This document shows positions 29-58,939 of a stretch of 64,000 nt of DNA, piece by piece. The position numbers and the translations under genes are program-made. Where the stretch lies: positions 186,001-250,000 of the forward strand of contig CANNBV010000005.1 in NCBI GenBank assembly GCA_947502975.1, read 5' to 3'. This stretch comes from an uncultured Flavobacteriaceae bacterium. Lineage in GTDB: Bacteria; Bacteroidota; Bacteroidia; Flavobacteriales; Flavobacteriaceae. Position 1 is the first letter of the stretch, and each line of letters begins with the position of its first letter. Below the pieces are notes generated by a model that worked only from the letters and a program-made list of their open reading frames with translations, was not told where the DNA came from and made no database searches.

Positions 29-73
29 CCAAATTCCATTTTTTTTCAAAAAAAACTATCCTGTACTGTCTCG
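29..73 (-). promoter_or_regulatory. Operator and -7 box of a gene off the left edge
   Basis: The sense strand reads CGAGACAGTACAGGAT (58-73), matching the window-wide operator consensus. A GAATTTGG box lies at 29-36, the fixed position for the -7 element. Nothing inside 1-57 can be its gene: the only nearby ATG (39-37) stops after five codons. The site therefore belongs to a minus-strand gene that starts a few bases beyond the window. Confidence 0.6.
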
Positions 74-122
74 AAATTTCAATATTTAAACACGAATCAC
101 TTATCATCTGAATTTTACAAAT

Positions 123-158
123 AAAAAAGCTAGAGAATTTAAATTCTCTAGCTTTTTT
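123..158. terminator. Bidirectional intrinsic terminator
   Basis: A perfect inverted repeat has arms AGCTAGAGAATTT (128-140) and its complement (141-153), flanked by A and T runs on both sides. It lies about 25 bases beyond the stop of the minus-strand PL24 gene and separates it from the next promoter. Confidence 0.85.
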
Positions 159-183
159 TAAAAACAAAATCTTTTTTTATCCT

Positions 184-2661: not shown

Positions 2662-2701
2662 GCTTTTCTTTTTTTTTCTTTTTCGAACTAGAATAATTCT
2701 A

Positions 2702-2746
2702 TAAAATTAACTAGAAAAACAACTCTAAGTGTCCTGTTGTATCCTG
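2702..2746 (-). promoter_or_regulatory. Operator and -7 box, PL24 gene
   Basis: The sense operator CAGGATACAACAGGAC (2731-2746) has two CAGGA half-sites at a 10-bp period. The -7 box TAATTTTA is at 2702-2709. The site is 70 bases from the ATG. Confidence 0.75.
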
Positions 2747-2777
2747 AGATATATTTAAAAAATAGTTAAATTAATGC

Positions 2778-3092
2778 CTATTTCATATAAAACACCTCTT
2801 CTAAAGGTATGGATACTGGTGAATTATCTGAATTGGTTTCCATAATATCTGCCATAAAATCCCACCACTTTTTTACAATTTCATTGTTAGCTAAATCTTG
2901 AGAACCGCCTTCTCCTGATATTTTTTGAAAAGCAAACAATGTACATGTTTCTTCATCCAAAAAAATTGAGTATTCGCTGACGCCATTATTCTTTAACAGT
3001 TGTTTTAGTTCCGGCCACAACTCGTCATGACGTTTTTTATACGCATCTTTTTGACCAGAATTTAGTTTCATTTTAAATGCTAATCTTTGCAT
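2778..3092 (-). CDS. rhaM: L-rhamnose mutarotase
   Basis: 104 residues, the full family length, with no signal peptide, so cytoplasmic. RhaM (PF05336) interconverts alpha and beta anomers of L-rhamnose before isomerisation. The N-terminal strand MQRLAFKMKL, His22 in the KKRHDELWPEL segment (the position of the catalytic His in the E. coli enzyme) and the paired Trp residues of KKWWDFM are all present. It is one of the few cytoplasmic genes here and shows that rhamnose is an end product of the locus. It has no operator of its own and lies downstream of the terminator of the 3220-4029 gene, so it is probably expressed by read-through or a weak promoter. Confidence 0.93.
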   Translation of the reverse strand: MQRLAFKMKLNSGQKDAYKKRHDELWPELKQLLKNNGVSEYSIFLDEETCTLFAFQKISGEGGSQDLANNEIVKKWWDFMADIMETNSDNSPVSIPLEEVFYMK

Positions 3093-3152
3093 GATTTTTT
3101 AAGATAAAATAGAATTAGAGATACTACTAGTATAAATAATTATAAGGGTTTT

Positions 3153-3219: not shown

Positions 3220-4029
3220 TTATTGCTTTACAATTTTCTTTGTAAAACTTCCGCGATCACCTTTCATTTCAACTAAATACAAACCACTTGCAAGAGCGCT
3301 AGTATCTAGATTAAGCGAAGTTTGTCCATCCAATTCTCTTGTTAAGACCTGCTCACCAAGTAAAGAGTAAACAGAAACTCTATTAACACTTGTTGTTAAT
3401 CCTTTGATAGTTAATTGGTTATTTACTGGGTTTGATACAAAAATAGAACTAGTGTCAAATTCTTCATTGCTTAAAGTTTGAGATACCCAGTCAAATGCTA
3501 CTGGGCCTCCACCACTAAGTCTTACGTCATCTCCTAATGCAAAATTTTGAACACGTCTTTTTGCTTTTCCATTCCAAGAACATGTTGCACAAGTATTTTC
3601 ACTAAAGATCTGTGTTCCAGACCCTCTAGTTGGGTTCCACCAATCCATTTGATCAGGGGCTCCACTAGCATTGCCTTGCACACCTATTGCTGGATTATCA
3701 ATATCTGTTTGTAAAATTTCCACGACACCACGTCCAGCGATTACAGATTCAAGGTAATAAAAGTTTGTTGTACCTGTAAAGACTGTTGTGAACTGCTGTA
3801 GTTCTGGTTTGGTAGTGTTTAATGGTTGGTAAGTAAGACGCTGCTCCCAAGCTCCAAATATAGGTGGTTCTTCATCCGGTAAGGTTAAATAAAGATTCTC
3901 ACCTTGAACTTTAATTATCCAAGTTCCCAAACGTGCGGCCGGATCGGTTGGAAAAGCTTGAGCTTCAATTTGAATAGTTACTAATGCGAAAAATAAAAAC
4001 GCAAGTAATTGAATTGTAGTTTTTTTCAT
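3220..4029 (-). CDS. T9SS-sorted secreted protein of unknown function
   Basis: 269 residues: signal peptide (cleavage near IEAQA, about 24), an unrecognised domain of about 165 residues, and a T9SS type A sorting domain from about residue 195 (SNPVNNQLTIKG, ending SFTKKIVKQ). The central domain is rich in aromatic residues (LGTWIIKVQGENLYLTLP, DWWNPTRGSG) and has a CATC pair that could form a disulfide. I recognise no catalytic motif. Its own PUL operator lies 70 bases upstream, so it is co-regulated with the lyases. A small extracellular ulvan-binding or lyase-accessory role is plausible but not shown. Confidence 0.75.
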   Translation of the reverse strand: MKKTTIQLLAFLFFALVTIQIEAQAFPTDPAARLGTWIIKVQGENLYLTLPDEEPPIFGAWEQRLTYQPLNTTKPELQQFTTVFTGTTNFYYLESVIAGRGVVEILQTDIDNPAIGVQGNASGAPDQMDWWNPTRGSGTQIFSENTCATCSWNGKAKRRVQNFALGDDVRLSGGGPVAFDWVSQTLSNEEFDTSSIFVSNPVNNQLTIKGLTTSVNRVSVYSLLGEQVLTRELDGQTSLNLDTSALASGLYLVEMKGDRGSFTKKIVKQ

Positions 4030-4347
4030 AATTTTAATATTAAATAGTTTTAGAAAAATTTTGATTTTCTAAATTTATGCTGTTTTTAAGTTTTTACTAT
4101 CCTGTACTATCATGCCGTCGAGGGGAATAGTTAGTCCTTTTTTAATACACTAGAAGTAAGATGATGATTCTTTGTTATGCTAATCTCTGGTTGAAAACAC
4201 TTTAAAGTTGTAGTAAATTATACTCCATTTTCAATTTTTATGAATTCTATGGTTAGTATTGATGTATCACTAAGTATATAAAGAATAAGCTAAGTTACTA
4301 TAAGAGCAATTTGATTATATTCTTTACGCTTTTATCATTTTAGCCTA
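4030..4347. other. Intergenic region with one promoter, otherwise empty
   Basis: 318 bases between the start of the T9SS protein gene and the stop of the GH3 gene. It holds the operator at 4099-4114 and its -7 box. The remainder (about 4120-4347) is AT-rich; I see no ORF, clear hairpin or repeat in it. Confidence 0.6.
4070..4114 (-). promoter_or_regulatory. Operator and -7 box, 269-residue T9SS protein
   Basis: The sense operator is CATGATAGTACAGGAT (4099-4114) and the -7 box TAAATTTA (4070-4077). It lies 70 bases from the ATG. Confidence 0.75.
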
Positions 4348-6522
4348 TTACTCTTTTACAGTAAGTTTTACTACTTTCAAGTCAGCATCTAAAGAAGATT
4401 TACCAACTGAAATAGTAAAAGTTCCTGGTTCTACTACTTTTTTCATGTCTTGATTAAGAATATTCAGTTCATCGAAACCAAGTTTAAAAGACACTTTTTT
4501 CGTTTCTCCAGGTTGCAATGTAATTCGTTGAAAGCCTTTTAACATTTTAAGATAACGGCCAACTGAAGCATAATCATCACGCACATATATTTGGACTACT
4601 TCATCACCTTCCCTGTCTCCGGTATTTGTAACTTCAACCGAAACGGTAGTAGATCCATCTACAGAAATAACATTTTGCTCTAGTTTTGGCGCACTATATT
4701 CAAAAGTGGTGTAGCTTAAACCATATCCAAAAGGAAATAAAGGAGACTTATCACTAAATCGATACTTTCCTTTTCCAGATCCAATAAAGTCTGGACGCTC
4801 AAGGTATGTAACAGGAACTTGTCCTACAGAGCGCGGAAAAGACATGGTTAGTTTACCTCCTGGGTTTACATCACCAAAAATCACATTGGCAACCGCATCA
4901 CCTGCTCTCATTCCGCCATACCAAGTTTCGAGTATAGATGGTATATTTTCGGCGATGTAATTTATACTCAACGGACGACCATTAATGAGAACAACAATTA
5001 CTGGTTTTCCTGTTTTATGAATCAACTCTACCAATTCATTTTGAACACCATACAAATCAAGATCTGACCGATCTCCACCTTCACCGCAGGTTTTATGAGA
5101 GCTACCCACAACGAGAACAACAGCATCCGATTTTTTCGCAGCAGACACAGCCGCAGGAAACCCCTCTTTTGAAAAACTATTAATATCGCAACCTTTAGCG
5201 TAGTTTATTTTTACTTTATCACCTACTTTTTTCTTTAAACCATCCAGAACTGAAACATAATATGGTGGTAATCCTGAATATCCCCCCAATAGTTCATAAG
5301 TTCCCTTTTTAGGTCTTTTTTCATGGGCATTAGGACCAATAACAGCTAAGGATTTTATTTTTGATAAATCAATGGGTAAAAGGTTATCATCATTTTTTAG
5401 CATGATAATAGATTTTTCAGCAACTTCCAATGCAAACTCACGATGTTCTTCACGACCAGCATTTACAGTTTCCTCATCAATTTCCTTTGGCTCTGCATCA
5501 AATAAACCTAATTTATATTTTGCAGTCAAAATACGTGATGTAGCTTTGTCTATGTACGGCATTAATGAAGGATCTTGAATTACTGTATCCTTCAAAACAT
5601 TAGCGTGATACGTTGCTAGCTCAACATTCTTGCCAATTACCAAGTCCATGTCAACACCTGCTTTTAACCCTAAAATAGCCGCTTTAGTTCTGGTTTCAGA
5701 AATAAAATGCATAGTTTCTATTCTCCCTACATCGTTATTGTCGGAAACAATAAAACCGTCAAAACCTAGTTCATCTCGTAAGATGTCCTTTAACAACCAA
5801 GTATTCATATGACATGGAACTCCGTTATAATCTTGATGCCCTGGCATAACAGAACCTACATGTGCTTCCTTTACTGCCGCCTCGAAAGATGGTAGGTAAA
5901 CTTCACGCAAACGACGTTCGGACATGTCGCTAAACCCACCATTTATACCACGGCGGTTTTCAGGGTATCCTACAAAATGTTTCGCTGTTGCAATGACATG
6001 ATTTTTATCAAATTGCTCATCACCCGTACCTTGTAAACCTTGAATAAATGCAACACCCATTCGCGACACTAAATAAGGGTCTTCACCATAGGATTCTTCA
6101 ACACGACCGTAGCGCGCATCTCCTGCGTAAACATCTAAATTAGGTGAGTAACAATGTGTAACGCCTAAAGCCCGTGCTTCTAGTGCTGTTTGGGAAGCCA
6201 TTTTTTTAATGAGTTCAGGTTCCCAAGTTGAGGCACAGGCCACCGCTTGCGGATAAACAGTTGTATTACCATAATAGTCAAGAACAAGCCATAATCCATG
6301 TAATGCTTCTCCATATTTCATAAAAGGAATACCTAGTCTATCATTAGCGGGAGCATCTTGTGTTAATTCGGCTATTTTTTCATCTAGGGTCATTTCACTC
6401 AAAAGTGCTTTCACCTTTTTATTTACGTCGTTGTTATTCTTGTTATATACTGCTTTTTCATCTGAATTACAATTCGTAAATAAGATAAAAACTGATACTA
6501 TTAGTAAAAAATAAGACTTCAT
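4348..6522 (-). CDS. GH3 glycoside hydrolase (beta-xylosidase/beta-glucosidase type)
   Basis: 724 residues; Cys18 in the N-terminal FTNCNSDE segment suggests a lipoprotein. It has the full GH3 layout: TIM-barrel domain (about 35-345), alpha/beta sandwich (about 370-590) and C-terminal fibronectin-III-like domain (about 640-715). The nucleophile is predicted as Asp261 in GFIVSDNNDVG; the KHF motif (181-183) binds substrate, and the Glu of GEGGDRSDL is the likely acid/base. GH3 enzymes release terminal beta-linked xylose or glucose; in ulvan the obvious target is xylose. It is monocistronic with its own operator 56 bases upstream. Substrate is inferred from context. Confidence 0.85.
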   Translation of the reverse strand: MKSYFLLIVSVFILFTNCNSDEKAVYNKNNNDVNKKVKALLSEMTLDEKIAELTQDAPANDRLGIPFMKYGEALHGLWLVLDYYGNTTVYPQAVACASTWEPELIKKMASQTALEARALGVTHCYSPNLDVYAGDARYGRVEESYGEDPYLVSRMGVAFIQGLQGTGDEQFDKNHVIATAKHFVGYPENRRGINGGFSDMSERRLREVYLPSFEAAVKEAHVGSVMPGHQDYNGVPCHMNTWLLKDILRDELGFDGFIVSDNNDVGRIETMHFISETRTKAAILGLKAGVDMDLVIGKNVELATYHANVLKDTVIQDPSLMPYIDKATSRILTAKYKLGLFDAEPKEIDEETVNAGREEHREFALEVAEKSIIMLKNDDNLLPIDLSKIKSLAVIGPNAHEKRPKKGTYELLGGYSGLPPYYVSVLDGLKKKVGDKVKINYAKGCDINSFSKEGFPAAVSAAKKSDAVVLVVGSSHKTCGEGGDRSDLDLYGVQNELVELIHKTGKPVIVVLINGRPLSINYIAENIPSILETWYGGMRAGDAVANVIFGDVNPGGKLTMSFPRSVGQVPVTYLERPDFIGSGKGKYRFSDKSPLFPFGYGLSYTTFEYSAPKLEQNVISVDGSTTVSVEVTNTGDREGDEVVQIYVRDDYASVGRYLKMLKGFQRITLQPGETKKVSFKLGFDELNILNQDMKKVVEPGTFTISVGKSSLDADLKVVKLTVKE

Positions 6523-6548: not shown

Positions 6549-6593
6549 CGAAACTAGTTTTTATTTCAATTAACAGTATCCTGAACTGTCTTG
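6549..6593 (-). promoter_or_regulatory. Operator and -7 box, GH3
   Basis: The sense operator is CAAGACAGTTCAGGAT (6578-6593) and the -7-like box TAGTTTCG (6549-6556). It lies 56 bases from the ATG. Confidence 0.7.
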
Positions 6594-6668: not shown

Positions 6669-8252
6669 TTAATTTCTATATCCATTGTTTGTTGGATCAG
6701 ACTCTAACAAGGCTGGGTTATTCTCTAACTCCTGTAAAGGAATAGGTAATTTTACATGCCATGGTCTGATATTATCAGCTGGGTTCCAGAAGCGGAATTC
6801 TAAATCTTGAACTACGTCTAATAAAATTCCCCATCTAATTAAATCATATCTTCTGTGCATCTCTGCTGCCAGCTCCCACTTACGCTCATCATAAATAGCT
6901 TCTCTAAACCCTTGTTGGTCTAAACCTAAAATTGCCTCAGCCTCTGCTACTGTAGCAAAAGCACGCTCTCTTATTTCTCTTATATATTCAAAAGCAGTGT
7001 TAGGATTACCTCCAGAGCGCTCGTTCTCACATTCTGCAGCCATTAAATGCACATCTGCTAAACGAAATACCATTCTGTTATCAGAGTGATTAAATCTTGG
7101 AGATCTATCTAATTCTAAATTCCAGAATTTAGCCATGTATGGAAAATTTAAGTCAAACCCTAAGTAGTTATCCACTATATTTAGCTCTCTTCTTAGATCA
7201 TTCATTGGGAATGACTCTGCGAAATCTTTAGAAGCCACTTGTAGACCTGTTCCATTAAAAGCTTCGCCTCTAGCCGCTAAAGCATCAGCTAAACCACTTC
7301 TCTCATCTGTATTGGCTGGTTCATCTCTTAAACGTGGATTAAACATACTTGGACGCCAGTTATTATTACCAGCAAATGATCTACCAGGGAATGCTGGATC
7401 GAATTGACTATTAATATCTCTAGCAAAATCTAAAGACCAAATAATTTCATCATTGTATTCATCGAATTGATCAAACACTTCATTATAAGTATCTAATAAT
7501 CTGTGAGGCGATTGATTAATGATTTCTAAACACTTATCTAAACCTTGTTGCCATTGTTGCTGCTTCATATAAATTTTTGCAATAACTATAGCTGCAGCCC
7601 ATTTTGAAGCTCTACCACTTTGATCTCCTGTGTAAGCAGTTTGCAAGTTATCTTGTGCAAATTGTAAATCCTCTAGAACACCTTCGATGATAGTAGCCTC
7701 TGGCGCTCTTCCTAAAGAACTAATTTCTTCAAGAGTCAAAACTTCGGTGTAATAAGGCGCATCACCCCAAAGATTAGTAATATGCCAATAGCATAAGCCT
7801 CTAATAAATCTAGCATCTGCAATAATATCTGTTCTTACTTCCTGTGAACCAATAGCTTCATTACCAGTTACTCGTTCGATAATTACATTGGCATTTAGTA
7901 TTGTTCTATAAAGGTCTTTCCAAGTATCTGAAACGCTCATTTTTTGGACAGAAACATCTGCTAAAGCTTCATTCATTGAATAATTCCCAATAGGTTCTAC
8001 AAAGTTTGCAGCACGATTGGGTTCAATAATATCACACCCGTTATCATAAAAATGATCTAACCCTACTTGCCCATATAAAGAGTTATTCTTTAATATAGCA
8101 TACATACCTTGAACGGCTTGTCTTGCATCATTCTCTGAAGCGAAAAAGGTTTCTGGAGAAATAAGCGCTTTTGGGTCTTCTTCTAAAAAACTCTCACAAC
8201 TAAAGCATGCAAAAGCGATAAAGACATATAAAAATATATTTTTTGTTTTCAT
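6669..8252 (-). CDS. SusD/RagB-family outer-membrane glycan-binding lipoprotein
   Basis: 527 residues with a lipoprotein signal (Cys19 in FACFSCESF) and the SusD hallmark FLEEDPKALISPETFF right after it. TPR-like helices follow, and the C-terminal half has the conserved YDERKWELAAEMHRRYDLIRWG segment near residues 450-480. SusD proteins cap the SusC pore on the cell surface and capture oligosaccharides. It is co-transcribed with susC, 10 bases downstream of it, and is followed by a terminator. The glycan bound is inferred to be ulvan oligomers from the neighbours. Confidence 0.95.
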   Translation of the reverse strand: MKTKNIFLYVFIAFACFSCESFLEEDPKALISPETFFASENDARQAVQGMYAILKNNSLYGQVGLDHFYDNGCDIIEPNRAANFVEPIGNYSMNEALADVSVQKMSVSDTWKDLYRTILNANVIIERVTGNEAIGSQEVRTDIIADARFIRGLCYWHITNLWGDAPYYTEVLTLEEISSLGRAPEATIIEGVLEDLQFAQDNLQTAYTGDQSGRASKWAAAIVIAKIYMKQQQWQQGLDKCLEIINQSPHRLLDTYNEVFDQFDEYNDEIIWSLDFARDINSQFDPAFPGRSFAGNNNWRPSMFNPRLRDEPANTDERSGLADALAARGEAFNGTGLQVASKDFAESFPMNDLRRELNIVDNYLGFDLNFPYMAKFWNLELDRSPRFNHSDNRMVFRLADVHLMAAECENERSGGNPNTAFEYIREIRERAFATVAEAEAILGLDQQGFREAIYDERKWELAAEMHRRYDLIRWGILLDVVQDLEFRFWNPADNIRPWHVKLPIPLQELENNPALLESDPTNNGYRN

Positions 8253-11200: not shown

Positions 11201-11307
11201 GTTACAGTTTGGGCAAATGAAGTTGCCACACAGGATAACAACAAAATGGTAAGCATCCTAATTTTTCGAAAATTAGATACTTCATTTAGTTTAGTTTTTA
11301 GTTTCAT
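8263..11307 (-). CDS. SusC/RagA-family TonB-dependent oligosaccharide transporter
   Basis: 1014 residues: signal peptide (to about 33), CarboxypepD_reg-like domain (about 34-110, with GQPLPGATVVVKG), plug domain starting at VVVIGYGTQRKSDLTGS, then a 22-strand barrel ending in an aromatic strand (TLGLNVTF). SusC imports glycan oligomers with SusD and TonB/ExbBD energy. There is no N-terminal STN extension, so it does not look like a sigma/anti-sigma signalling receptor; regulation more likely acts through the operator found 60 bases upstream. It is the first gene of a two-gene operon with susD. Confidence 0.95.
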   Translation of the reverse strand: MKLKTKLNEVSNFRKIRMLTILLLSCVATSFAQTVTGTVTADGQPLPGATVVVKGSTTGTSTDFDGNYTINASDENTLVFSYVGYSTKEVVVGNQTTINVTLDQDNTLDEVVVIGYGTQRKSDLTGSVSSISSEDLTALPVPRVDQALQGRASGVQVTQVNGAPGAGTVIRVRGGNSITGSNEPLWVIDGIIVGTNFNLNNINSNDIKSIEILKDASSIAIYGARGANGVVLVTTKNGASAGTGKPQISVNLYTSSQMLPELPDRLNQREQIEFNNESARFRAAAEPFPDDPSTYPDNDWVDLVLGTAPIYNADVSISGATDNVNYYTSMNYFNQEGIVKSSGLEKYIFRANLDLKISDKVKAGFRLNYSRLEQDNALASFSQAAFGIVRTQPAFNDDGSFNGFDDIVGSPFNNPLAAIALNTNETFTNNLLATVYLEYSPAPNWIIRSTFSPEFNNTKRNRFSSSQLPGLLAVGDTGQGSASIRTVNTNGWNNENTIQYQSDIGENHSVTALAGASFQKVSTEIAEAQAFGITSDATGFNNLGNSDPTRAVVTSDFTGFQFASFFGRLNYSYKDKYLLTLVGRSDGSSRFAEGNKYAFFPSIAGAWKISEEDFMQDQDIFQDLKLRASWGKSGNQAIDPYSTLGLLTGANTTLNGVEVPGLTLGRPSNPNLQWETTSSFDIALEASLFGGRVFAEFNYYYKETEDLLLDVTIPRQTGFNSQLQNIGSLKNTGWELLVNSTNVSTANFNWNSTVTLSANKNEILDLGGVDFIDIVADPILGSGNTRLIVGESVPAFTGVRYLGTWKSQAEIDASGRTDPQVVGGSHFEDLNGDGIASTQDAVVLGSPFPDLIFGIENNFSYKNWDFSFYFQGTQGNEVYNLSMRNNYFNRGETVKFGDLRNRWIEGVNETSNIPRAGADSVTNTIPNSEYVEDGSHIRLKNIRLAYNFQPDKMGLDGIKNATVYLSGTNLLLFSKTRLIDPEASNFGRDNILQGYISAQYPNPRVLTLGLNVTF

Positions 11308-11337: not shown

Positions 11338-11382
11338 CTAAAATATTTCTTAAAATTTTACTCTGTATCCTGCACTACCCGT
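11338..11382 (-). promoter_or_regulatory. Operator and -7 box, susCD
   Basis: The sense operator is ACGGGTAGTGCAGGAT (11367-11382), with a weak distal half-site and a perfect proximal one. The TATTTTAG box is at 11338-11345. It lies 60 bases from the ATG. Confidence 0.65.
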
Positions 11383-11423: not shown

Positions 11424-11468
11424 CAGGATAGCACAGGTTAACCAAACCAACAAAACCTCATAATTTTA
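11424..11468 (+). promoter_or_regulatory. Operator and -7 box, nucleoside-hydrolase-like gene
   Basis: The operator CAGGATAGCACAGGTT (11424-11439) faces rightward, back to back with the susCD operator. The -7 box TAATTTTA is at 11461-11468. The operator ends 99 bases before the ATG. Confidence 0.7.
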
Positions 11469-15650: not shown

Positions 15651-15695
15651 TCAATGTATTTTATTCCCCGCTAAAAGGTATCCCGTACTATACTG
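15651..15695 (-). promoter_or_regulatory. Operator and -7 box, modular clan-A hydrolase
   Basis: The sense operator CAGTATAGTACGGGAT (15680-15695) is one of the most diverged copies. A TACATTGA box is at 15651-15658. It lies 41 bases from the ATG. Confidence 0.6.
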
Positions 15696-22082: not shown

Positions 22083-22127
22083 CAAATTTAATAGTTGTCT
22101 AAACAAATTCTATCCTGCACAATCCTT
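22083..22127 (-). promoter_or_regulatory. Operator and perfect -7 box, GH39-GH5-GH2 operon
   Basis: The sense operator is AAGGATTGTGCAGGAT (22112-22127). The box TAAATTTG at 22083-22090 is an exact match to the Bacteroidetes TAnnTTTG -7 consensus, which anchors the alignment of the other promoters. Confidence 0.8.
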
Positions 22128-24863: not shown

Positions 24864-24884
24864 TTTATATAAATTAAAAGCCAT

Positions 24885-24929
24885 CGAAATTAAAAGATTA
24901 TTCAAAATAAAGTGTCCTGTTCTATTAGG
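24885..24929 (-). promoter_or_regulatory. Operator and -7 box, T9SS binding protein and sulfatase
   Basis: The sense operator CCTAATAGAACAGGAC (24914-24929) has a weak distal half. The box TAATTTCG is at 24885-24892. Its position decides the gene start at 24863. Confidence 0.65.
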
Positions 24930-27841: not shown

Positions 27842-27886
27842 TAAAAATAATGGTATTACTTCTAGCTTTTATCCTGTACTCTCATG
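27842..27886 (-). promoter_or_regulatory. Operator and -7 box, GH78
   Basis: The sense operator CATGAGAGTACAGGAT (27871-27886) is identical to that of the DUF1549 operon. The -7 box TATTTTTA is at 27842-27849. It lies 72 bases from the ATG. Confidence 0.75.
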
Positions 27887-28070: not shown

Positions 28071-28115
28071 CAGGAAAGAGCAGGATGGAAACACTTATTA
28101 ATAATCTGAAATTAC
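28071..28115 (+). promoter_or_regulatory. Operator and -7 region, PL28-like lipoprotein
   Basis: CAGGAAAGAGCAGGAT (28071-28086) has two perfect CAGGA half-sites. The -7 position (28108-28115) reads GAAATTAC, a weak match. The operator ends 99 bases before the ATG, the same as for the gene at 11538. Confidence 0.65.
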
Positions 28116-31134: not shown

Positions 31135-31179
31135 TGAAATTAGGTGTATTGTAAACGAAAAGTATCCTGTACTGTCTGA
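31135..31179 (-). promoter_or_regulatory. Operator and -7 box, clan-A hydrolase
   Basis: The sense operator is TCAGACAGTACAGGAT (31164-31179) and the box TAATTTCA is at 31135-31142. It lies 41 bases from the ATG. Confidence 0.65.
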
Positions 31180-33861: not shown

Positions 33862-33868
33862 TTTTTTA

Positions 33869-33955: not shown

Positions 33956-33965
33956 TTATTTACTT

Positions 33966-36836: not shown

Positions 36837-36881
36837 TAAAGTTATTGGCAATTGACAATAAGATTATCCTGTACTCTCATG
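36837..36881 (-). promoter_or_regulatory. Operator and -7 box, DUF1549-DUF1501-NHL operon
   Basis: The sense operator is CATGAGAGTACAGGAT (36866-36881) and the -7 box TAACTTTA is at 36837-36844. It lies 66 bases from the ATG. Confidence 0.75.
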
Positions 36882-36898: not shown

Positions 36899-36943
36899 CA
36901 AGATGGAGCAGGATACTACAAAATGGCTTTATAATTACCTTTA
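36899..36943 (+). promoter_or_regulatory. Operator and -7 box, 289-residue lipoprotein
   Basis: CAAGATGGAGCAGGAT (36899-36914) with the -7 box TACCTTTA (36936-36943). It is only 17 bases from the leftward operator, so the two promoters are nearly back to back. It lies 73 bases from the ATG. Confidence 0.7.
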
Positions 36944-41441: not shown

Positions 41442-41486
41442 GAAAAGTATTTAAAATTAAGAATTTATCTGTCCTGTTTTGTCCTG
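41442..41486 (-). promoter_or_regulatory. Operator and -7 box, toroid lyase-like gene and sulfatase
   Basis: The sense operator CAGGACAAAACAGGAC (41471-41486) has two perfect half-sites. The box TACTTTTC is at 41442-41449. It lies 175 bases from the ATG, about 100 more than most others. Confidence 0.7.
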
Positions 41487-43615: not shown

Positions 43616-43660
43616 TAAAGTTCTTTATAATAGTTCAAAACACTATCCTGAACTGTCCTG
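43616..43660 (-). promoter_or_regulatory. Operator and -7 box, PL28 lyase
   Basis: The sense operator CAGGACAGTTCAGGAT (43645-43660) is close to the consensus. The -7-like box GAACTTTA is at 43616-43623. It lies 75 bases from the ATG. Confidence 0.75.
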
Positions 43661-46235: not shown

Positions 46236-46280
46236 TAAAAATCACTAAAACCTATTAAAACTCTATCCTGAACTATCCTG
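46236..46280 (-). promoter_or_regulatory. Operator and -7 box, second PL24
   Basis: The sense operator CAGGATAGTTCAGGAT (46265-46280) has two perfect CAGGAT half-sites. The box GATTTTTA is at 46236-46243. It lies 67 bases from the ATG. Confidence 0.8.
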
Positions 46281-49855: not shown

Positions 49856-49900
49856 GTAAAAAAATGATATTATTGAAATAAAGTATCCTGTTGCATCATG
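49856..49900 (-). promoter_or_regulatory. Operator, GH106
   Basis: The sense operator is CATGATGCAACAGGAT (49885-49900). The -7 position (49856-49863) is only a T-run ending in A, the weakest -7 match of the set. It lies 54 bases from the ATG. Confidence 0.6.
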
Positions 49901-49918: not shown

Positions 49919-51682
49919 TTATTCAGATACCACAATTGGATATACAGCAATATCACTAGCTTTAAACCCAATGCGATGCGCTTTTACTTGTAGTTCTGCG
50001 CCTTCAGGTAATACTAATGGATTTTGATACACTTCCCAAGACGGCTGTGATTTTTCTCTAGCTTTTAAAATTTTATACCCAATGGAAGCACCTTCAGTTT
50101 TGCAGGTTATTGAAATTTCCCCATTATCATTATCAATAACCGGTGCAGATGTTGCTGGTTGTTTGTTTTTACCATTCCACAGTTTCTTAATCAATTCCCC
50201 TTCGGGTAAATCAGGATTATCTCCAATAACTTTAAGCCATTGATCCATTTCGTCTCTAAGCTCATCAATTTTGTCTTTATACGCAGGGTTATCTGCAATA
50301 TTATTCAATTCGTATGGATCAATCAAGCAGTCGAATAATTCTTCTTTTGGCTTGCTCTCTCTAAACCATTGTTTTTGAAATTCATTCAATTGACCTTCGT
50401 CACGCAATCGTAACAATTCCTGCATTGTTGGGATGCGCTCTCTATAAGTAATTGGCAAATAGTAGCCTTGTTCTGGTCTGTAATTCCTAATGTATTTGAA
50501 TTGCTTATCGCGTACAGCTCTAATGACATCTGTTTCAGCATCAAAACGATCAGCCGCCGCATGAATATAATCACGCTCTTCAGCTTTATGCTTTCCTAAA
50601 AAGGCTTGACCTTGCATATATGGTTTTGGAGTTTCTCCTATTAATGACATTAAGGTTGGTGCAAAGTCTACAAAACTTATTAATTGATTATCTTTTGTAC
50701 CTGCTTGAAATTTTTTAGGAAAACGAATAATCATGGGCGTATTTAAACCTGAATCGTAAATTAATCTTTTTTCTCTTGGTAATGGTCCCCCGTGGTCTCC
50801 GTAGAAAAAAACTATGGTATTTTCAAGCAAACCATCTTCTTCTAATTGCTGTAATACGGCACCTACCTGCCTATCCATTTCAGCGATATTATTATAGAGT
50901 TTCCATATATCGCGTTGTACAACTTTATTATCTGGCAAATATGGTGGAATGTTGAATTTTGTGTCTTTTGGAAGATGAATTGGAGTATCCTCTTCAGCCA
51001 TGCGATTATTAGCATGATGCCCTCCAAAGTTTTTCCATTTATAATCTTTATTCCCTGAATGATAATGCCTAGTTTCAATTTCTCTAAAGCCATAAGGTTC
51101 AAACAAGCCTGATTCGTGCGTAACGGTAAAATTAAACACTGAAAAAAATGGCTGATTATCCTTTCTATTCCGCCAATGTGCATACGGACTACTCTCATCC
51201 CAAGCAGTAACTGGTGCTTTGAATTGATAATCAGTTTTGTCATTGTTGGTACAATAATAACCTGCACTTCGTAGCCACTCGCTTATCATCTTCACTTCGG
51301 ATGGTGGCACTGCTTCGTAAGCTGGCAAACCTCGTTCTTTTGTATATGAATTGGTTCGCATATGGTTTGCGCCAATACTTGACGGATACATCCCTGTAGC
51401 AATTGCCGCCCTGCTTGGTGCACAAACGCCCGAGGTTGAATATAGGTTTGGGTAAATAACACCTTCTTTTGCTAGCATACTTAAATTTGGTGTTGCGACC
51501 GTAGAGTCCCCAAATGGTGGAATATAGGCTCCCATATCTTCGGTTACAAGCCAAAGTATATTAGGACGTTCGGGCAACTTTAAATGCGTAACATTATTTG
51601 ATGGGCTTGCTTGATTATCCTTTTTTGTTTGGCAGCTTACAACACATAAACTCAACACCAATAAGACTCTAAATATTCTCAT
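49919..51682 (-). CDS. S1-family sulfatase lipoprotein with C-terminal beta-sandwich
   Basis: The start at 51682 (MRIFRVLLVLSLCVVSCQ) gives a clean lipoprotein signal; an ATG 10 codons upstream (51712) adds a non-signal extension. The 587-residue protein has the formylglycine motif C-A-P-S-R (Cys87 from this start, in TSGVCAPSRAA), LVTEDMG metal-binding residues and a YGDHGG motif. It looks closest to the S1_8-like sulfatases I remember, but the subfamily is not certain. The last about 75 residues (PVIDNDNGEISITCKTEG onward) form a separate sandwich like the C-terminal domain of hexosaminidases. It is probably the distal gene of the operon starting at 58807. Confidence 0.9.
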   Translation of the reverse strand: MRIFRVLLVLSLCVVSCQTKKDNQASPSNNVTHLKLPERPNILWLVTEDMGAYIPPFGDSTVATPNLSMLAKEGVIYPNLYSTSGVCAPSRAAIATGMYPSSIGANHMRTNSYTKERGLPAYEAVPPSEVKMISEWLRSAGYYCTNNDKTDYQFKAPVTAWDESSPYAHWRNRKDNQPFFSVFNFTVTHESGLFEPYGFREIETRHYHSGNKDYKWKNFGGHHANNRMAEEDTPIHLPKDTKFNIPPYLPDNKVVQRDIWKLYNNIAEMDRQVGAVLQQLEEDGLLENTIVFFYGDHGGPLPREKRLIYDSGLNTPMIIRFPKKFQAGTKDNQLISFVDFAPTLMSLIGETPKPYMQGQAFLGKHKAEERDYIHAAADRFDAETDVIRAVRDKQFKYIRNYRPEQGYYLPITYRERIPTMQELLRLRDEGQLNEFQKQWFRESKPKEELFDCLIDPYELNNIADNPAYKDKIDELRDEMDQWLKVIGDNPDLPEGELIKKLWNGKNKQPATSAPVIDNDNGEISITCKTEGASIGYKILKAREKSQPSWEVYQNPLVLPEGAELQVKAHRIGFKASDIAVYPIVVSE

Positions 51683-51768
51683 TTGAATGGTTTTTAAAAG
51701 CACAAATGCCATGTCATTCTATTTATATAACTAAATCAACATAAAATAACTCTGATGCTAATCTAAAG

Positions 51769-51836: not shown

Positions 51837-52964
51837 TTAATCTAACTTCAAAATTTCACTACCAGCCATTAAAAAAGCACCTGTACCAAAATTTTGCCAT
51901 GAATCGGCTGAAGCAGGTTCAGGAAAAGCACCAATGTTTTGTACCCAACCTACACGGCCATCTTCATGCTGACAAGCTGTCAAAGCATTCCATGCTTTTT
52001 TAACTGCATCTGTATGTGTTTTATCAACTAAGCCATTATTAATACCCCAAGCCAAAGCAAAGGTATGGAATCCACTACCGCTCACTTCACCATGGTTGTA
52101 TGATTCTGGACAAAGTAGACTGGTACGCCATAGGCCATCTTCTGGCTGAATGTCCAATAGTTTTTTTGCCATTTCTTTATATAAATTCTCGTAAAAAGGC
52201 CTATGCTGATACTCCTCTGACATATCATCCAAAATCAATGCTAACCCAGCAAACACCCAGCCGTTGCCTCTTGACCAAAATACTTTTTTCCCATTTGGTT
52301 CTTTACTGTCCTTATCATTTCCTTGCCAAACAAAGCGCATATCCCTGGCAAATAACTGCTCTTCGTCATCATATAATTGGTTATATGTCTGCATATAAAA
52401 TTTATGCATCTCATCCAAATATTTAGGTTGATTGGTGTGTTTGGCATACAGGTTAAGTACCGGAGGTGCCATAAATAATGCATCACACCACCACCATAAA
52501 ATGGTTCGGCCGTATTTACTTTTATCCGTTCCCGCTTTCCAGTTATCCTCTTCGTATAAATGCGCATCTAAAAATTTTTTGGTAGGTTCTAAATCAACAA
52601 AATTCTTTCTCCCATCGGTCATATCAATATATAAATAGCTGTATGAAATAGCCACATCATCAGCATGGTGCAAACGATTAAAGGTATTCCAATTATTCCA
52701 ATAGCCTTGATTTTTTAAGGCCGCCATATACATCATGTCTTTTGTTGCTTTATGAGCTCTCACAACACCAGTATAGTAGGCACCGTTGGTCCAATCAGTT
52801 GGGGCAATTGCAATTATCGGATGTGCTTCCTGCCATTCCAAAGCTTTAATCATGGATGCCTTAATAGCGGATTTATCCAGTGTTTTGGGTGCGGTTGTTT
52901 TTTGTGCCACTGAACAGTTGAGAAGAAAGACAACCGCTAAAAACGTGATTATTGATTTATTCAT
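51837..52964 (-). CDS. GH105 unsaturated uronyl hydrolase
   Basis: 375 residues, an alpha/alpha-barrel of normal GH105 length, with a signal peptide (to about 20, NCSVAQ). It removes the 4,5-unsaturated uronic acid left at the non-reducing end by ulvan lyases, via hydration of the double bond. The catalytic Asp is likely Asp161 in WWWCDALFM, a second Asp lies in HHADDVA (102-103), and the FWSRGNGW segment is the family signature. Three bases after the GH3 stop, so translationally coupled within the operon. Confidence 0.93.
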
Positions 52965-52967
52965 TGT

Positions 52968-55241
52968 TTATTTTTTCAGTTTGAACGTAGTTTCTAAGTA
53001 GTCTTTTGAAGAGGTTCCTATTTTAACCGTATAATCACCTGCCTCTAAAACTTTTTCCATGGTAATTCCTGTAAATTCAAGCATTTTTGGAGTAATTTTA
53101 AATGAAACAGTTTTACTTTCTCCAGCGTCCAATTCTATCTTTTCAAAGCCTTTTAATTCTTTATCGGGACGTGTTACGGAGCCAATTTCATCTTTCAGAT
53201 ACATTTGCACGACCTCTTTAGCCTTAACATCACCAGTATTGGCAACGGTTATGCTAACTTCAATTTCTGTTTCAGGTGTGATTTCTTGATTTGATATTTT
53301 AATATCGGAATATTCAAAATTACCATAGCTCAACCCATGCCCAAACGGGTAAAGCGCCCCTTTCCCTAAAAATAGATATTCTTTTTTATAGTTAATCTCT
53401 TTCATACTGTAATGGTAGGGTAATTGCCCTATAGATCTTGGAATTGTAACAGGTGATTTCCCAGAAGGTGATACTTCCCCAAAGATAATTCTTGCGGTAG
53501 ATTCGTCTCCAAATTCACTTAAATCCCAAGTATCTAAAATGGCGTCGGCATGTTCTGCAATGGCATTAATCGACAAGGTTCGTCTATGTTTTAGAACCAC
53601 AATAACCGGTTTTCCCAAAGCCTTAATTTTCTCGATAACCTCATCTTGAGGGCCAACGGGATCAATAGTTGCTCTATCCCCTAAAGTGCTGCTACTAAAG
53701 TAAGCTTCTTTCGCGGTGTATTTATCACCTCCTAAAAACAAGATGCATACATCAGCATTTCTTGCTGTATTTACTAATTTAGCAATGGCCTTTGGGTCAC
53801 GCTCTAATAACTCAGGAGCCCCACCCTTTTCATTTGTTAGATTAAAACCTTTTTCTGCTATAAATTTTACGTTTGAACCTGCGGCAGATTCAAACATTGT
53901 CTTTGTATTCTCATTTAATAATGGTCCCAATAATGCCACTTTTAAAGACTTATTTTTTGATAATGGTAAGACTTTATCTTCATTCTTCAATAGTATAATG
54001 GATTCTAAATCCGATTCTTTTGCAAGTTCTAAAGACGACTGTGCTCTTACTCCCTTTTTAACAGCTTCAATATCGATATAAGGATTATCAAACAACCCTA
54101 AAATGAATTTTGTTCTTAATACCCGTCTTACAGACCTATCAATTAGTTTTTCTAATTCAGGGTTTTTCTTTACCATCTCTGGTAAGTACGCATAAGAATC
54201 TTCAGCATATAAATCGACATCTATTCCTGCTTCTAAGCCCATTTGAGCTGCAGCTTCAGGGGACTCGACTACATTCATAAAATAAAATAAACGTGCAATA
54301 TCATTTGAATCTGAAACTACATAACCTTCAAACCCCCATTGGTCGCGAAGTACACCTGTCAATAATTCTGGATTACCATGACTCGCTACACCATTTAAAT
54401 CACCATGGGAAGCCATAATCCCTAAAGTTTTTGCTTCTTTTACTGCTGCTTCAAATGGTGGATAAATCTCATCAATCAGTGTTCTTTCAGAAATCTCAAT
54501 TGCTGCAAAGTTAGACCCACCTGATACTTGACCATAACCTGCAAAATGTTTTGCAACGGCTCCAATATGAGTACCATTTCCTAAGCCTTCATAATCACCT
54601 TGAACACCAATTATAGCGTTTTTAACCATCTGTGTGGTTAAATAAGTATCCTCTCCAAAAGCTTCACTCATACGGCCAAAACGCGGATCGCGAACAATAT
54701 CGGCCTCTGGCGAATGGCACATGTGCATCCCCCTTAAACGCGCTTCTCTGCCTACAACATCCCATTGGTGTCTAACCAATTCTGGATTAAATGATGCTGA
54801 TGATGTCATCGGGCGACCAAACTTAGTACAGCCCTCAGCATCCACACCATTGTAAGATTCTGTTACAAACAAGGCTGGAATACCCCAACGGTTATTTTCG
54901 ATGATATATTTTTGAAGTTCGTTATTTAGTTTTGCAGACGCCACCGCATCAATATGTTCTCCTGGATTTTTAATACCTGCAATTCCTAACTTTAATTTTT
55001 CAATAACTTTATCTGATAATTTTAAGTTACCATTTTCATCAGGTTTCGTACCAATGTTGGCATGAAAAATTCTCATTTGAGCCACTTTTTCTTCAAGTGA
55101 TAATTTTGGAAGTAATGCTTCTACACGTTCATCAATGGAGAGCGAAGCGTCTTTATAATCTACTGCACTTGAAACTTTCCTATTGCAGGAATAGAAGCTA
55201 ACACTCAGTGATATGAATACTAAAATAAGGATTTTTTTCAT
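52968..55241 (-). CDS. GH3 glycoside hydrolase lipoprotein
   Basis: 757 residues with a lipoprotein signal (Cys19, SFYSCNRK). Domains are as in the other GH3: barrel (about 35-385), alpha/beta sandwich (about 410-620) and Fn3-like domain (about 665-745). The nucleophile is predicted as Asp311 in GYVVSDSNDIA, and KHFAGYG lies at 231-237. The usual EGxDR acid/base segment is replaced by a longer loop (GGDKYTAKEAYFSSST), so the two GH3 enzymes probably differ in specificity. It lies 47 bases after the sulfatase-GH78 gene, upstream of GH105. Beta-xylosidase is a likely role but is inferred. Confidence 0.87.
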   Translation of the reverse strand: MKKILILVFISLSVSFYSCNRKVSSAVDYKDASLSIDERVEALLPKLSLEEKVAQMRIFHANIGTKPDENGNLKLSDKVIEKLKLGIAGIKNPGEHIDAVASAKLNNELQKYIIENNRWGIPALFVTESYNGVDAEGCTKFGRPMTSSASFNPELVRHQWDVVGREARLRGMHMCHSPEADIVRDPRFGRMSEAFGEDTYLTTQMVKNAIIGVQGDYEGLGNGTHIGAVAKHFAGYGQVSGGSNFAAIEISERTLIDEIYPPFEAAVKEAKTLGIMASHGDLNGVASHGNPELLTGVLRDQWGFEGYVVSDSNDIARLFYFMNVVESPEAAAQMGLEAGIDVDLYAEDSYAYLPEMVKKNPELEKLIDRSVRRVLRTKFILGLFDNPYIDIEAVKKGVRAQSSLELAKESDLESIILLKNEDKVLPLSKNKSLKVALLGPLLNENTKTMFESAAGSNVKFIAEKGFNLTNEKGGAPELLERDPKAIAKLVNTARNADVCILFLGGDKYTAKEAYFSSSTLGDRATIDPVGPQDEVIEKIKALGKPVIVVLKHRRTLSINAIAEHADAILDTWDLSEFGDESTARIIFGEVSPSGKSPVTIPRSIGQLPYHYSMKEINYKKEYLFLGKGALYPFGHGLSYGNFEYSDIKISNQEITPETEIEVSITVANTGDVKAKEVVQMYLKDEIGSVTRPDKELKGFEKIELDAGESKTVSFKITPKMLEFTGITMEKVLEAGDYTVKIGTSSKDYLETTFKLKK

Positions 55242-55288: not shown

Positions 55289-58200
55289 TTAAAACGAATT
55301 AATTTTTAGTTGAATAGTGTGTTTCCCAGGTTCTAACCTTATAGAATCAAAAGCTGAAGGAACTTTTTTTCCGTTGTGGATTAAGTCTTTTCCATCAAGT
55401 CCATTTAAAGAAAACTCCGCCACCATATTACCTGGAATTTCGATTTCATAAGTTTGTAATCTTGCACCATTATATGTGTATTTCCCTTTTATCGCACCTC
55501 TTACTGTTGGCACTTCTATTTCACTAGATTTTAACTTACTCATTTGAGGTTTTATAGTTGCAATACCAAACCCTGGAGTTTTTGGTTTAATTCCCCATAG
55601 CCCTCTTGGTATAATATTAGCTGGTGCTGCACCCCATGCATGGTTCCAATCTAAATTTACTTTATATTCATAATCCCAGGCTTCCAAACTAATCGTTGAG
55701 CCTATACGAATCATATTGTACCAGCTTCTTTTAGCTTTACTGGCTAATAACTCTAAAGCGTAATCTTCCTCACCTGCGTTGTATAAACCATCCATTAAAA
55801 ATTGTGCGCCATAAACACTACAAGCCAGTCCTCGAGATTTTACAAAATCGACTACGGATTTTTGATGTTCCTCAGGTACTAATCCAAACGCTAAAGGCAT
55901 CATATTGGCATGTAAAGAGGCATGGTCTGTACCAATGCCATCTACATAAACACCACGTTCTTTGTCAAACATTTGTTCATTTACTGCTTTTTTAGCTTTT
56001 GCAGCTCTATATTCAAAATCTAAAGCCTCTTGTGTTTTTCCTAATAAAGTAGCAAACTCAGCCATAATTTTCATATTCTCATAAAAGAACGCATTAATAA
56101 CTGTACTGTATGGCTTAAAAACAAAACCATCGCGTTCACCTTTTGTTTTACTTCCCGCAAAATTCTTTGACGGCCAATCTACAATATCCGTTAAAGGCTT
56201 TTTGTAACCTTTTTCAAACCCAAGCTTATACATAAACTCTTCAGTAACTTTTGTTGATGTTATTAAACCATCTTCATTAGATAACTCATAAAGGGTTTTA
56301 TGCTTTAATGGCTCGTAATAACGCTCTATGAGTTCTGTATTTCCGGTATACATATAATCTGCATAAATCAACAAAGCAACATGCTGTTGCCATTCTGTTG
56401 GCCACGTAGGGTTTTTCATGAAATACTCTATGGTACGTCTTGCTATGGCATACTCCCTATCGGTAGTATAATGACTTAACTGATTTAGATACGCATCAGC
56501 CTCATAAGGAATACGTTCTCTGTCGCCATCTACATATAAACCAGCAAACGTAGTTGCTTTAATAGAGTATTTACAGAAATCCCAAACTTGATTTAAAATA
56601 TCATTATTACTTTTAAAGCTACTTGCATTATCATCCCAATAGCTTGTGTATCGTAATTGTTCAAAATCTTCTGCTTTTAAAGCTGTTTGAGTACCTTCAA
56701 CTTCTGCATATCTAAACGGCTGTAAAACAGGCCATTCTTCTTGTAAAGGAATAGCTTTACTTGGGCCTTTCATACGCTTGTCTGGAACTGGATTAATTTC
56801 TATTTGGTATTTTGTTTTTCCAGGGGTTACGTTCACCTTAATTTCTTGGTAACGAATATTACTCTTTTCTGGTGGTGTTCTGTTTACATTCCCTTTATCA
56901 TCAAGCATTTCACCAATTCTAACTGTTAAAGTATGTGGTTCTTTAGCTTCATATTTAAAATCGATGGTCGCAAAAGCCGCTTTACCAAAATCCATAAAGT
57001 AAAAATCGCCTCTGTTTTCAAATCCAACAGGATTTACTTTATCTATAAGGTATTTATTTTCTGTTGAAACAATGTAATCATCTGGCTTTCCTGTTGTAAA
57101 TTCTTGAGCTTCAGAATAATCCACCAATCTATTTTCCTGCTCCCAAATTCTAACTTTCCAATAATATATTTTTCCAACTTCTAATGGTTTTCCTTGATAC
57201 TCAACATTAGTAGATTCAATAGAAGCTACTCTGCCGCTATCCCAGACATCGCCATTATTAGCATCGATACTTTTTTTATTTGAAGCGACTAAAATTTGGT
57301 ATGCACCTTGAAACTTTGAACCTAAAGGCACCGTCCACCCAAATTCTGGTTTCAAATCGAAAATTTCAACTTCAGTACTAGGTTTTCTTATAAGTTCAAC
57401 CGTTAAATCGGATGGTGCTGCACGATACTCGTTACTATTTTTCTTGATGAGCTCATCTGTTTTAGCCCTAAGATTATCTAGTACCTTTTTGTATTTCTTT
57501 TTACTGACAAGATTTTTAATTTCTTGTGGATCCTTCTCTAAATCGTAAAGCTCTTCAATGGACTTATCGTTAACATATCTGAAGTATTTCCATTTTTTAG
57601 TTCTCACACCTTCACTAGGGGGAATTTCTTCAAAATCCCATATATGCTCAATTAAAATTGTATCTCTAGCAATCGTATTTGTTTGCTTTTTCACAATAGG
57701 CATTAAACTCTTTCCTTGCCACGATTCTGGTGCCTTAACACCTGCTAAATCTGCAATGGTTTGTGGCACATCAATATTTAATACCATATCTTTAATATCT
57801 TGATGGGTATTTTCTCTAGGGTCAAAAACTATTAATGGCACTCTAATAGAGTTATCGTACATTAACCATTTTCCTGCTAATTTACGTTCTCCTAAAAAAT
57901 AGCCATTATCACCCATGACTATAATAACAGTATTTTTATCAAGTCCTTTTTCTTTTAATTTATTTCTAATTTTTTTGATTTCTAAATCAATTCCAGATAT
58001 CATTCGGTAATACCCTTTTAGACTGTGTTGGTATTTTTCTGGAGTATCGTAGCGCCACGTCCAGCGTAACCAGTTAAACCCTTTCTTTACAATTTCAGGT
58101 TGTGCATCAAAATATTTATCATCACCAAGTTCTGGTCCAGGAATCGTTGTGTTTTCTAGAAGTTTATCTGTAGTATTCTGCCAAAAATATTGTTCTGGAG

Positions 58201-58807
58201 CTCCATCATGGGCATGTGGTGCACTAAAACTTAATGACAAACAGAATGGTTTTTCATTCGTTGCATTACTATCAATAAAATCGAGTGCTTTTTGACCTGT
58301 ATAGCGCGTTAAGTGAACTGTGTCATTATCGAGTGTTTTGTAATAATACCCTCTTCTATCTTTATAACGGTTATTTCTATCGTAAGACTCAAACTCGTCA
58401 AATTGCTTGTCTAAATCATCGTAACGCACACCATACTTACCATAAAAACCTGTGTGATATCCATTATTTTTGAGAACCGTTGGATACGAATCATCCATGT
58501 ATTCGCTTCTAATGTTACCTGTTTGAAAGTTAAAGTTATGAGCACGTTCATGCAAACCAGTTAAAATACTCGCTCTACTTGCCGCGCAAATAGGAGTTGT
58601 TACAATGGCAGAATTAAAGTAAGTACCTGATTTTGCCAAATCATCCATTTCTGGAGTTTCAACAAATTTATTACCCGCATAACCAATGGCGTCGAAACGC
58701 TGGTCGTCAGTAAGGATAAAAATAATATTTGGCTTGTCCTGAGCAATTGTAAAATTAAAACTTCCAATTGATAGTATAATTCCGAATAAAAATTTGAGTT
58801 TAAACAT
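55289..58807 (-). CDS. Bifunctional S1 sulfatase - GH78 alpha-L-rhamnosidase fusion
   Basis: 1172 residues: signal peptide (to about 22), S1 sulfatase (about 24-455) with formylglycine motif C-A-A-S-R (Cys74 in [11 protein letters not shown], an Ala variant of CxPxR) and the MGDNGYF motif, then a complete GH78 (about 465-1170) with N-terminal Fn3-like domain, jelly roll and toroid. The rhamnosidase motif [15 protein letters not shown] is at about 760-775. I recall a protein of the same organisation (S1_25 plus GH78) in the characterised Formosa agariphila ulvan locus. The fusion suggests coupled desulfation and release of rhamnose. First gene of the operon with GH3, GH105 and sulfatase. Confidence 0.9.
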
Positions 58808-58894
58808 TAAATTTTGATTAACTATTAAAGAATTGTAGATACTAATCTAAAAGTATCTTTTTTGAATCTTAACTAAGAATTTATTTATAATTTA

Positions 58895-58939
58895 TAAAAT
58901 TAAGTTTATTAAAACGCAACTTTATCCTGCACTGTCCTG
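58895..58939 (-). promoter_or_regulatory. Operator and -7 box, sulfatase/GH78-GH3-GH105-sulfatase operon
   Basis: The sense operator is CAGGACAGTGCAGGAT (58924-58939) and the -7 box TAATTTTA is at 58895-58902. It lies 117 bases from the ATG, longer than the typical 40-75. Confidence 0.78.

Follow-up and report, generated by a model that had tools for sequence, protein, structure and literature searches.

Which protein reads the 16-bp direct repeat that recurs before the genes of a flavobacterial ulvan locus, and what does it do to the promoters that it marks? The repeat occurs in 19 copies in a 64,000-nucleotide stretch of an uncultured Flavobacteriaceae bacterium (assembly GCA_947502975.1, here G000, 4.55 Mb in 36 contigs; contig CANNBV010000005.1, here C5, positions C5:186001-250000), which we call the window and whose coordinates are given without prefix. 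By Pfam, the locus encodes two PL28 lyases, ulvan-lyase trefoil proteins, GH78, GH106, GH3, GH2 and GH88 enzymes, sulfatases, a rhamnose mutarotase and SusC/D pairs. The repeat is a genuine, conserved master operator whose distribution, in sequence comparisons, follows that of a GntR/LacI hybrid regulator linked with the rhamnose operon; that this regulator, GntR1, is its reader is well supported. The initial annotation thus recognized the operator correctly and misnamed its reader. We consider it probable that a rhamnose-type regulon operator has spread over the ~95-kb ulvan locus, where GntR1 would read it in the -33 slot and activate ~25 promoters.

With up to 3 mismatches to the 16-mer CAGGANAGTNCAGGAT the window holds 20 matches, against 3.78 ± 1.70 in 100 shuffles (largest 8). 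These comprise 17 of the 19 copies listed in the initial annotation, a register-shifted overlap at 36909 (+) and the unlisted positions 24124 (+) and 49450 (+). The other two copies, 24914 and 49885, have more than 3 mismatches, yet score 23.3 and 17.5 bits in leave-one-out tests of a matrix built on 24 sites of this genome, the 19 of the window and five beyond it, all 24 of which score at least 17.5 bits. Coordinates and strands of all 19 copies proved correct, as did their division into two CAGGA(T/C) half-sites in direct orientation with 10-bp spacing. The conserved word extends about 2 bases further, to CAGGATA[G/C], with a half-site of approximately CAGGAYA[G/C]T. Thus, both half-sites being direct, the inverted-repeat operator of AraR-like GntR/LacI hybrids is not seen here; a palindromic reading was rejected, the columns upstream of the first half-site showing no matching arm. 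Direct arrays of four half-sites with a 10-bp period in relatives (L185:6579-6599, L113:8935-8955) show the basic unit to be the single 10-bp half-site. An open reading frame (ORF) starts on the same strand 8-239 nt downstream of each of the 24 own sites, and in all 24 the repeat is oriented towards the gene. The statement that a copy precedes every transcription unit agrees with the gene map, the units being deduced from gene spacing. Each line below spans operator, spacer and -7 slot, and ends with the leave-one-out score.

29..73, minus strand: operator 58-73, spacer, -7 slot GAATTTGG; before a GH78 gene left of the window (C5:183168-185987); 27.5 bits.
2702..2746, minus strand: operator 2731-2746, -7 slot TAATTTTA; before 184-2661 (BNR_4 / ulvan-lyase trefoil); 31.9 bits.
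4070..4114, minus strand: operator 4099-4114, -7 slot TAAATTTA; before 3220-4029 and probably also rhaM (2778-3092); 32.4 bits.
6549..6593, minus strand: operator 6578-6593, -7 slot TAGTTTCG; before the GH3 gene 4348-6522; 28.4 bits.
11338..11382, minus strand: operator 11367-11382, -7 slot TATTTTAG; before SusC (8263-11307) and SusD (6669-8252); 21.4 bits.
11424..11468, plus strand: operator 11424-11439, -7 slot TAATTTTA; before 11538-12413 (no family); 27.5 bits.
15651..15695, minus strand: operator 15680-15695, -7 slot TACATTGA; before 12658-15639 (CBM6/35 protein); 21.6 bits.
22083..22127, minus strand: operator 22112-22127, -7 slot TAAATTTG; before 20378-22045 and probably 18953-20347 and 15930-18911; 25.7 bits.
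24885..24929, minus strand: operator 24914-24929 (more than 3 mismatches), -7 slot TAATTTCG; before 23862-24905, whose true start is probably further downstream because the -7 box overlaps the listed TTG-started ORF, and 22258-23844; 23.3 bits.
27842..27886, minus strand: operator 27871-27886, -7 slot TATTTTTA; before the GH78 gene 24938-27799; 28.5 bits.
28071..28115, plus strand: operator 28071-28086, poor -7 slot GAAATTAC; before the PL28 gene 28185-29207; 21.3 bits.
31135..31179, minus strand: operator 31164-31179, -7 slot TAATTTCA; before 29366-31123; 24.5 bits.
36837..36881, minus strand: operator 36866-36881, -7 slot TAACTTTA; before 33966-36800, 32398-34008 and 31283-32383; 28.9 bits.
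36899..36943, plus strand: operator 36899-36914, followed by a third half-site-like repeat (the overlap at 36909), -7 slot TACCTTTA; before 36987-37856; 27.4 bits.
41442..41486, minus strand: operator 41471-41486, -7 slot TACTTTTC; before 39383-41296 and the sulfatase gene 37872-39269; 27.3 bits.
43616..43660, minus strand: operator 43645-43660 (exact), -7 slot GAACTTTA; before the PL28 gene 41555-43570; 31.5 bits.
46236..46280, minus strand: operator 46265-46280 (exact), -7 slot GATTTTTA; before 43730-46198; 30.9 bits.
49856..49900, minus strand: operator 49885-49900 (weak, more than 3 mismatches), no good -7 box TTTTTTAC; before the GH106 gene 46373-49831; 17.5 bits.
58895..58939, minus strand: operator 58924-58939 (exact), -7 slot TAATTTTA; before the sulfatase-GH78 fusion 55289-58807 and probably 52968-55241, 51837-52964 and 49919-51712; 34.6 bits.

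A -7 box starting on the 22nd base after the 16-mer, i.e. with 21 bases between, had been proposed for most copies, and TAnnTT indeed lies at this offset of 21 in 14 of the 19 window copies. Counting the five sites outside the window the figure is 18 of 24, with 20 of 1128 (1.8%) at other offsets. The box at 22112, described earlier as perfect, does read TAAATTTG; those at 49885 (TTTTTTAC) and 28071 (GAAATTAC) are poor. This phase is maintained across genera: among 131 operator-only sites in 79 named loci, obtained by similarity to GntR1, TAnnTTT stands at offset 21 in 76, the count for the next-best offset being 12, where TATA-like starts produce an overlapping register. TTG is absent 17-23 bases before the -7 box from 101 in-phase sites and from all 24 own sites; where the phase is kept, CAGGATA occupies the place of the -33 TTG. 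The claim that the operator overlies the -33 region, keeping a constant phase to a -7 box of the TAnnTTTG type, is upheld. The arrangement is that of class II-type activators, in which the operator overlaps the -33/-35 slot at a fixed distance from the core -7/-10 element. We infer from the fixed phase, the fixed orientation and the operator-filled -33 slot that the bound regulator touches the polymerase and activates transcription, rather than acting as a repressor, in line with the activator postulated earlier. In F. psychrophilum the housekeeping consensus is TAnnTTTG and an ECF-like (extracytoplasmic function) box contains CGT (PMC9723704). An ECF-type -10 element in place of TAnnTTTG is not what the own sites show, TAnnTT being in phase in the 18 of 24 counted above. 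Further, the one SusC scanned, 8263-11307, consists in Pfam of CarbopepD_reg and Plug only, and thus lacks, as the initial annotation had it, the STN domain expected under ECF sigma/anti-sigma control.

From C5:161040 to C5:255668 the matrix detects 25 sites, namely the 24 from which it was built and a new one at 255668. The motif is locus-specific when its density at unrelated genes is checked, no position in 400 kb sampled outside the locus in the same genome reaching 12 bits by the full matrix. All 14 own-genome matches to the composite of operator and -7 box with at most 1 mismatch lie inside the locus; with up to 3 mismatches the genome holds 42, of which 23 are in the locus, compared with 8 controls, and the 16-mer with up to 2 mismatches has 29 matches, 17 in the locus and 12 outside, compared with 5 reversed controls. 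The earlier view of one regulon with some 19 separate promoters therefore holds as regards the single regulon and the many promoters, but its extent of about 60 kb was too short, the sites spanning C5:161040-255668. Those outside the window, in C5 coordinates, are:

161040, minus strand: site before rhaD (bifunctional rhamnulose-1-phosphate aldolase/dehydrogenase), head of the rhamnose operon.
161253, plus strand: site before the fructose-1,6-bisphosphatase gene, followed by GntR1.
177327, minus strand: site before a GH2 gene.
251860, minus strand: site before the second SusC (C5:248596-251763).
254469, minus strand: site before an SDR/UxuA pair.
255668, minus strand: site before GntR2 (C5:254555-255556); 21.0 bits.

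The combination makes metabolic sense: rhamnose and uronic acids abound in ulvan, and cells growing on rhamnose depend on gluconeogenesis. The UxuA/SDR uronate pair is present in duplicate: one pair, at C5:147659-149684, lies without the operator beside a LacI-type gene and TRAP genes, and the other, at C5:252207-254229, behind the operator at 254469.

Three regulator genes were noticed in C5:140-280 kb: one of LacI type (149892), GntR1 and GntR2. GntR1 (C5:162474-163529), 24 kb left of the window, belongs to the GntR family by its winged helix (PF00392, E 7e-12, 45.2 bits with a cut-off of 27), which also matches that of AraR (PDB 4egy, E 7e-8), and it carries a LacI-type C-terminal domain (Peripla_BP_3, PF13377, E 7e-7). 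The AlphaFold2 model of its orthologue from Hyunsoonleella jejuensis (pLDDT 89.9) has LacI, RbsR and CcpA as top structural matches. Among 199 Flavobacteriaceae genomes the strict composite signal is present in 45 (221 matches, compared with 2 in the reversed control) and a GntR1 orthologue, at a cut-off of at least 55% identity, in 42: 38 genomes have both, seven the signal only, four GntR1 only and 150 neither. The four with GntR1 but no strict match nevertheless carry a site before rhaD (24.7-29.2 bits). Besides the window genome, the signal precedes rhaD in 39 of 40 assessable GntR1 genomes at 24.7-34.2 bits, the maximum in 400 shuffled 300-bp stretches being 8.4, and it does so in 56 of the 62 named loci that hold rhaD (23.3-34.0 bits; these are partly the same species as the genome set). 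Operator-only sites number 131 in 977 kb of GntR1 loci, compared with one in 67 kb of control stretches, and 33 of 47 genomes have a GntR1-type gene no more than 2.5 kb from rhaD. In G049 the sole strict match lies in the interval that separates the rhamnose operon from a divergently oriented GntR1 (L099), so the operator is not ulvan-specific. The five genomes whose rhaD is accompanied only by a 37-45% relative of GntR1 are instructive: the site before rhaD scores 20.9 bits in G064, 17.3 in G108 and 13.0 in G020, and there is nothing before rhaD in G037 or in G024, the only site of the latter (14.7 bits) being off rhaD. The rhaD of G108 and G037, at 83% identity, is on a par with the rhaD of many genomes that carry the signal, so the site fades as the regulator, not the enzyme, diverges. 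The window genome has one GntR1 gene beside its rhamnose operon; elsewhere (G132, G163, G070, G044 and G153; L105, L136, L134, L135 and L137) two tandem paralogues, 82-87% and 63-68% identical to GntR1, stand in this place.

Several observations weigh against this assignment or against activation. The p-value for the association of signal and GntR1 (4e-29) overstates it, related genomes not being independent, and rhaD is present in 42 of 42 GntR1 genomes, so that pathway and regulator are confounded. In eight of the 47 genomes GntR1 and rhaD are either separated by more than 25 kb or placed on different contigs, and G127 has no site before its 65%-identical rhaD. The same is true of six of the 62 named loci, five labelled Flavobacterium and one uncultured Bacteroidetes, which have rhaD at 63-66% and 1-2 sites elsewhere in the stretch. 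Seven motif-bearing genomes have no GntR1 at the 55% cut-off; in a survey of these that left out G146, the match lies inside an ORF in G012, G022 and G138, and G116 has a strict match outside ORFs in a genome without any GntR1 match. Scored by its operator part only, the matrix gives 12-14.7 bits at six positions of the 400 kb sampled, and the absence of TTG is partly forced, since the operator itself occupies the slot. AraR-like hybrids, moreover, are mostly repressors. Finally, a one-turn direct repeat is unusual for GntR proteins, which generally bind inverted repeats (PMC5320631).

The nearest domain architecture to GntR1, with the winged-helix match mentioned above, is that of AraR, a repressor, and the operator covers the -33 region; GntR1 might hence be a classical repressor that blocks this region until rhamnose or its products dislodge it, the more so as some Bacteroidota promoters may function with a -7 box alone. 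Repressor sites, though, need no exact phase or orientation, whereas offset 21 recurs in 76 of 131 sites and the repeat faces the gene in 24 of 24 own sites, and no TTG remains at -33; we regard repression as unlikely. The initial annotation had instead named an AraC-type regulator or hybrid two-component system (HTCS) as reader. The genome does contain 31 AraC HTH_18 matches, direct repeats are typical of HTCS operators, and the rhamnose regulator RhaR of Bacteroides is of the AraC type (PMC3878776). Yet none of the 31 lies in C5:140-280 kb, the nearest being at C5:282837, ~27 kb beyond the last site, and C5:59446; the repeats of Bacteroides HTCS motifs average 21 bp apart (PMC3878776) compared with 10 bp here; and the operator is tied to GntR1 by co-occurrence and by the site before rhaD. 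A reader of this kind was rejected on location and spacing rather than by a search for co-occurring AraC proteins, and one encoded elsewhere we hold to be very improbable. An equally slight chance attaches to GntR2, or a GntR1/GntR2 pair, as reader of the window sites in ulvan users: GntR2 lies within the locus behind its own site at 255668, and its closest orthologues come from genomes with 8-14 sites, but orthologues of at least 62% identity occur in only 7 of 199 genomes while the signal occurs in 45, and in G115 and G134 a different repeat, AACAGAACAGAAC..., marks the start of the GntR2-like genes. As general reader, GntR2 was rejected on this distribution.

For GntR1 as activator, building on the computed operator, phase, regulon extent and tie to GntR1 and rhaD, we infer binding, activation and ligand as follows. 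Soluble GntR1 would bring two copies of its winged helix to the CAGGAYA[G/C]T half-sites, which follow each other head to tail at a distance of one helical turn and look to one side of the DNA. The second half-site would fill the -33 slot exactly 21 bases before a housekeeping TAnnTTTG-type -7 box, and bound GntR1 would stand in for the -33 element and recruit RNA polymerase. The signal, given the rhamnose operon within the regulon, would be rhamnose or an early rhamnose-breakdown product, released in the cell from ulvan. Rhamnose catabolism, fructose-bisphosphatase for gluconeogenesis and, via the fbp promoter, GntR1 itself would be switched on together with the uronate enzymes, the second regulator GntR2, the lyases, sulfatases and glycosidases, and the SusC/D pairs.

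Beyond the family, G233, G229 and G383, from three more remote families of the class, have a 41-45% GntR1 relative, rhaD and the signal at one place; G307 and G402 showed no site directly before rhaD. At class level the strict match is present in 18 of 247 genomes, with 2 control matches, and six of the 12 tested among these 18, a test that left out G210, G219, G228 and G231, have a GntR1 relative. In G108 and G037 the recognition helix has SRDT[VI]V for SRDT[VI]E, and in the sites beside GntR/rhaD (CAGAACAGTACAGAACGG, CTTAACAGTACAGAACAC and CGGAACAGTACAGAATAG) both half-sites are shifted from CAGGA towards CAGAA, a hint, from three sites, that each half-site may be matched by one winged helix; the G037 site has no in-phase TAnnTT. 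CAGAA as a widespread second operator was rejected (55 matches in 37 of 199 genomes, compared with 38 in the reversed control). A GntR/LacI paralogue of the window genome (C3:378058-379044; L204:8083-9045) is closely preceded (L204:8002) by another direct repeat of 10 bp, ACTAGTAGGGTCTAGTAGG, whose phase to a TATCTTTG box is the same, and AACAGAACAGAACAGAAC, again in this phase, stands where the GntR2-like genes of G115 and G134 start. Such places, with a different repeat in the same phase, number five in 12 stretches, three of them at a GntR gene. With a little under even confidence we suggest that a Bacteroidota class of GntR/LacI-hybrid activators reads one-turn head-to-tail half-sites that replace the -33 box. 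GntR1 would be its rhamnose member, kept across several families, and in ulvan users the modular operator would have been copied before each promoter, a cytoplasmic monosaccharide sensor thereby running a whole polysaccharide utilization locus (PUL).

Some products of the locus deserve mention in their own right. The gene at 55289-58807 (-) encodes a 1172-aa fusion of an S1-type sulfatase with a GH78-type rhamnosidase; its homologues in G110 (L097) and G145 (L108), of 75 and 89%, are likewise preceded by this operator. Behind the operator at 36866, the region 32398-36800 (-) encodes a DUF1501 protein and a "planctomycete cytochrome" protein in which PSCyt1/PSCyt2/PSD1 are joined to a DUF2231 membrane part. 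Three operator-preceded proteins, 11538-12413 (+), 36987-37856 (+) and 39383-41296 (-), have no Pfam or NCBIfam match.

The operator system is a variation on known regulation, combining a PUL regulon with a monosaccharide regulator, and not a new kind of system. AraR-type GntR regulators are repressors on palindrome-like sites; they share domain architecture and monosaccharide control with GntR1 (PDB 4egy), whose proposed site is instead a direct repeat of one turn held in constant phase with the -7 box. AusR is reportedly a GntR repressor of the Zobellia alginate genes, a dedicated algal-polysaccharide regulator. HTCS regulators of Bacteroides PULs likewise activate from direct-repeat operators before several transcription units, but with ~21-bp repeats, a membrane oligosaccharide sensor and an AraC domain in place of the 10-bp repeat and soluble GntR/LacI-hybrid candidate found here, and RhaR of Bacteroides thetaiotaomicron controls L-rhamnose catabolism but is of the AraC family with a single target operon reported, against a GntR candidate with ~25 sites including a whole PUL (both PMC3878776). 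The MocR/GabR/PdxR branch also places GntR winged helices on direct repeats, in some cases for activation, but has an aminotransferase sensor domain, repeats two or three turns apart and no sugar regulons in the portions of PMC5320631 available; GntR1 has Peripla_BP_3 instead of an aminotransferase-like C-terminal domain. Control of a polysaccharide locus by a monosaccharide signal is shared with B. thetaiotaomicron arabinan utilization, where AraR is a repressor beside an oligosaccharide-sensing activator of the HTCS type (PMC5061871), and with Vibrio XylRA, a homologue of E. coli XylR in a gammaproteobacterium, in connection with which this strategy is called uncommon (PMC12125979). CgrA, an AraC protein, is similarly dedicated to a marine flavobacterial algal-polysaccharide locus, the Zobellia carrageenan regulon, but no fixed-phase operator shared by some 25 promoters is apparent in the available portions of its description (PMC5698469). 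A literature search without most subscription journals found no paper on GntR rhamnose operators in flavobacteria or on the transcriptional regulation of ulvan/L-rhamnose PULs.

If the proposed reading is true, GntR geometry would include a one-turn direct repeat in the -33 slot, unlike the inverted or two- and three-turn direct repeats described in PMC5320631, and a soluble sensor of monosaccharide type would govern a large PUL at which neither an HTCS nor a SusR or ECF system was seen. One 45-bp element would then mark rhamnose-responsive promoters, including those of ulvan loci, across marine flavobacteria, and ulvan regulons could be drawn from sequence alone.

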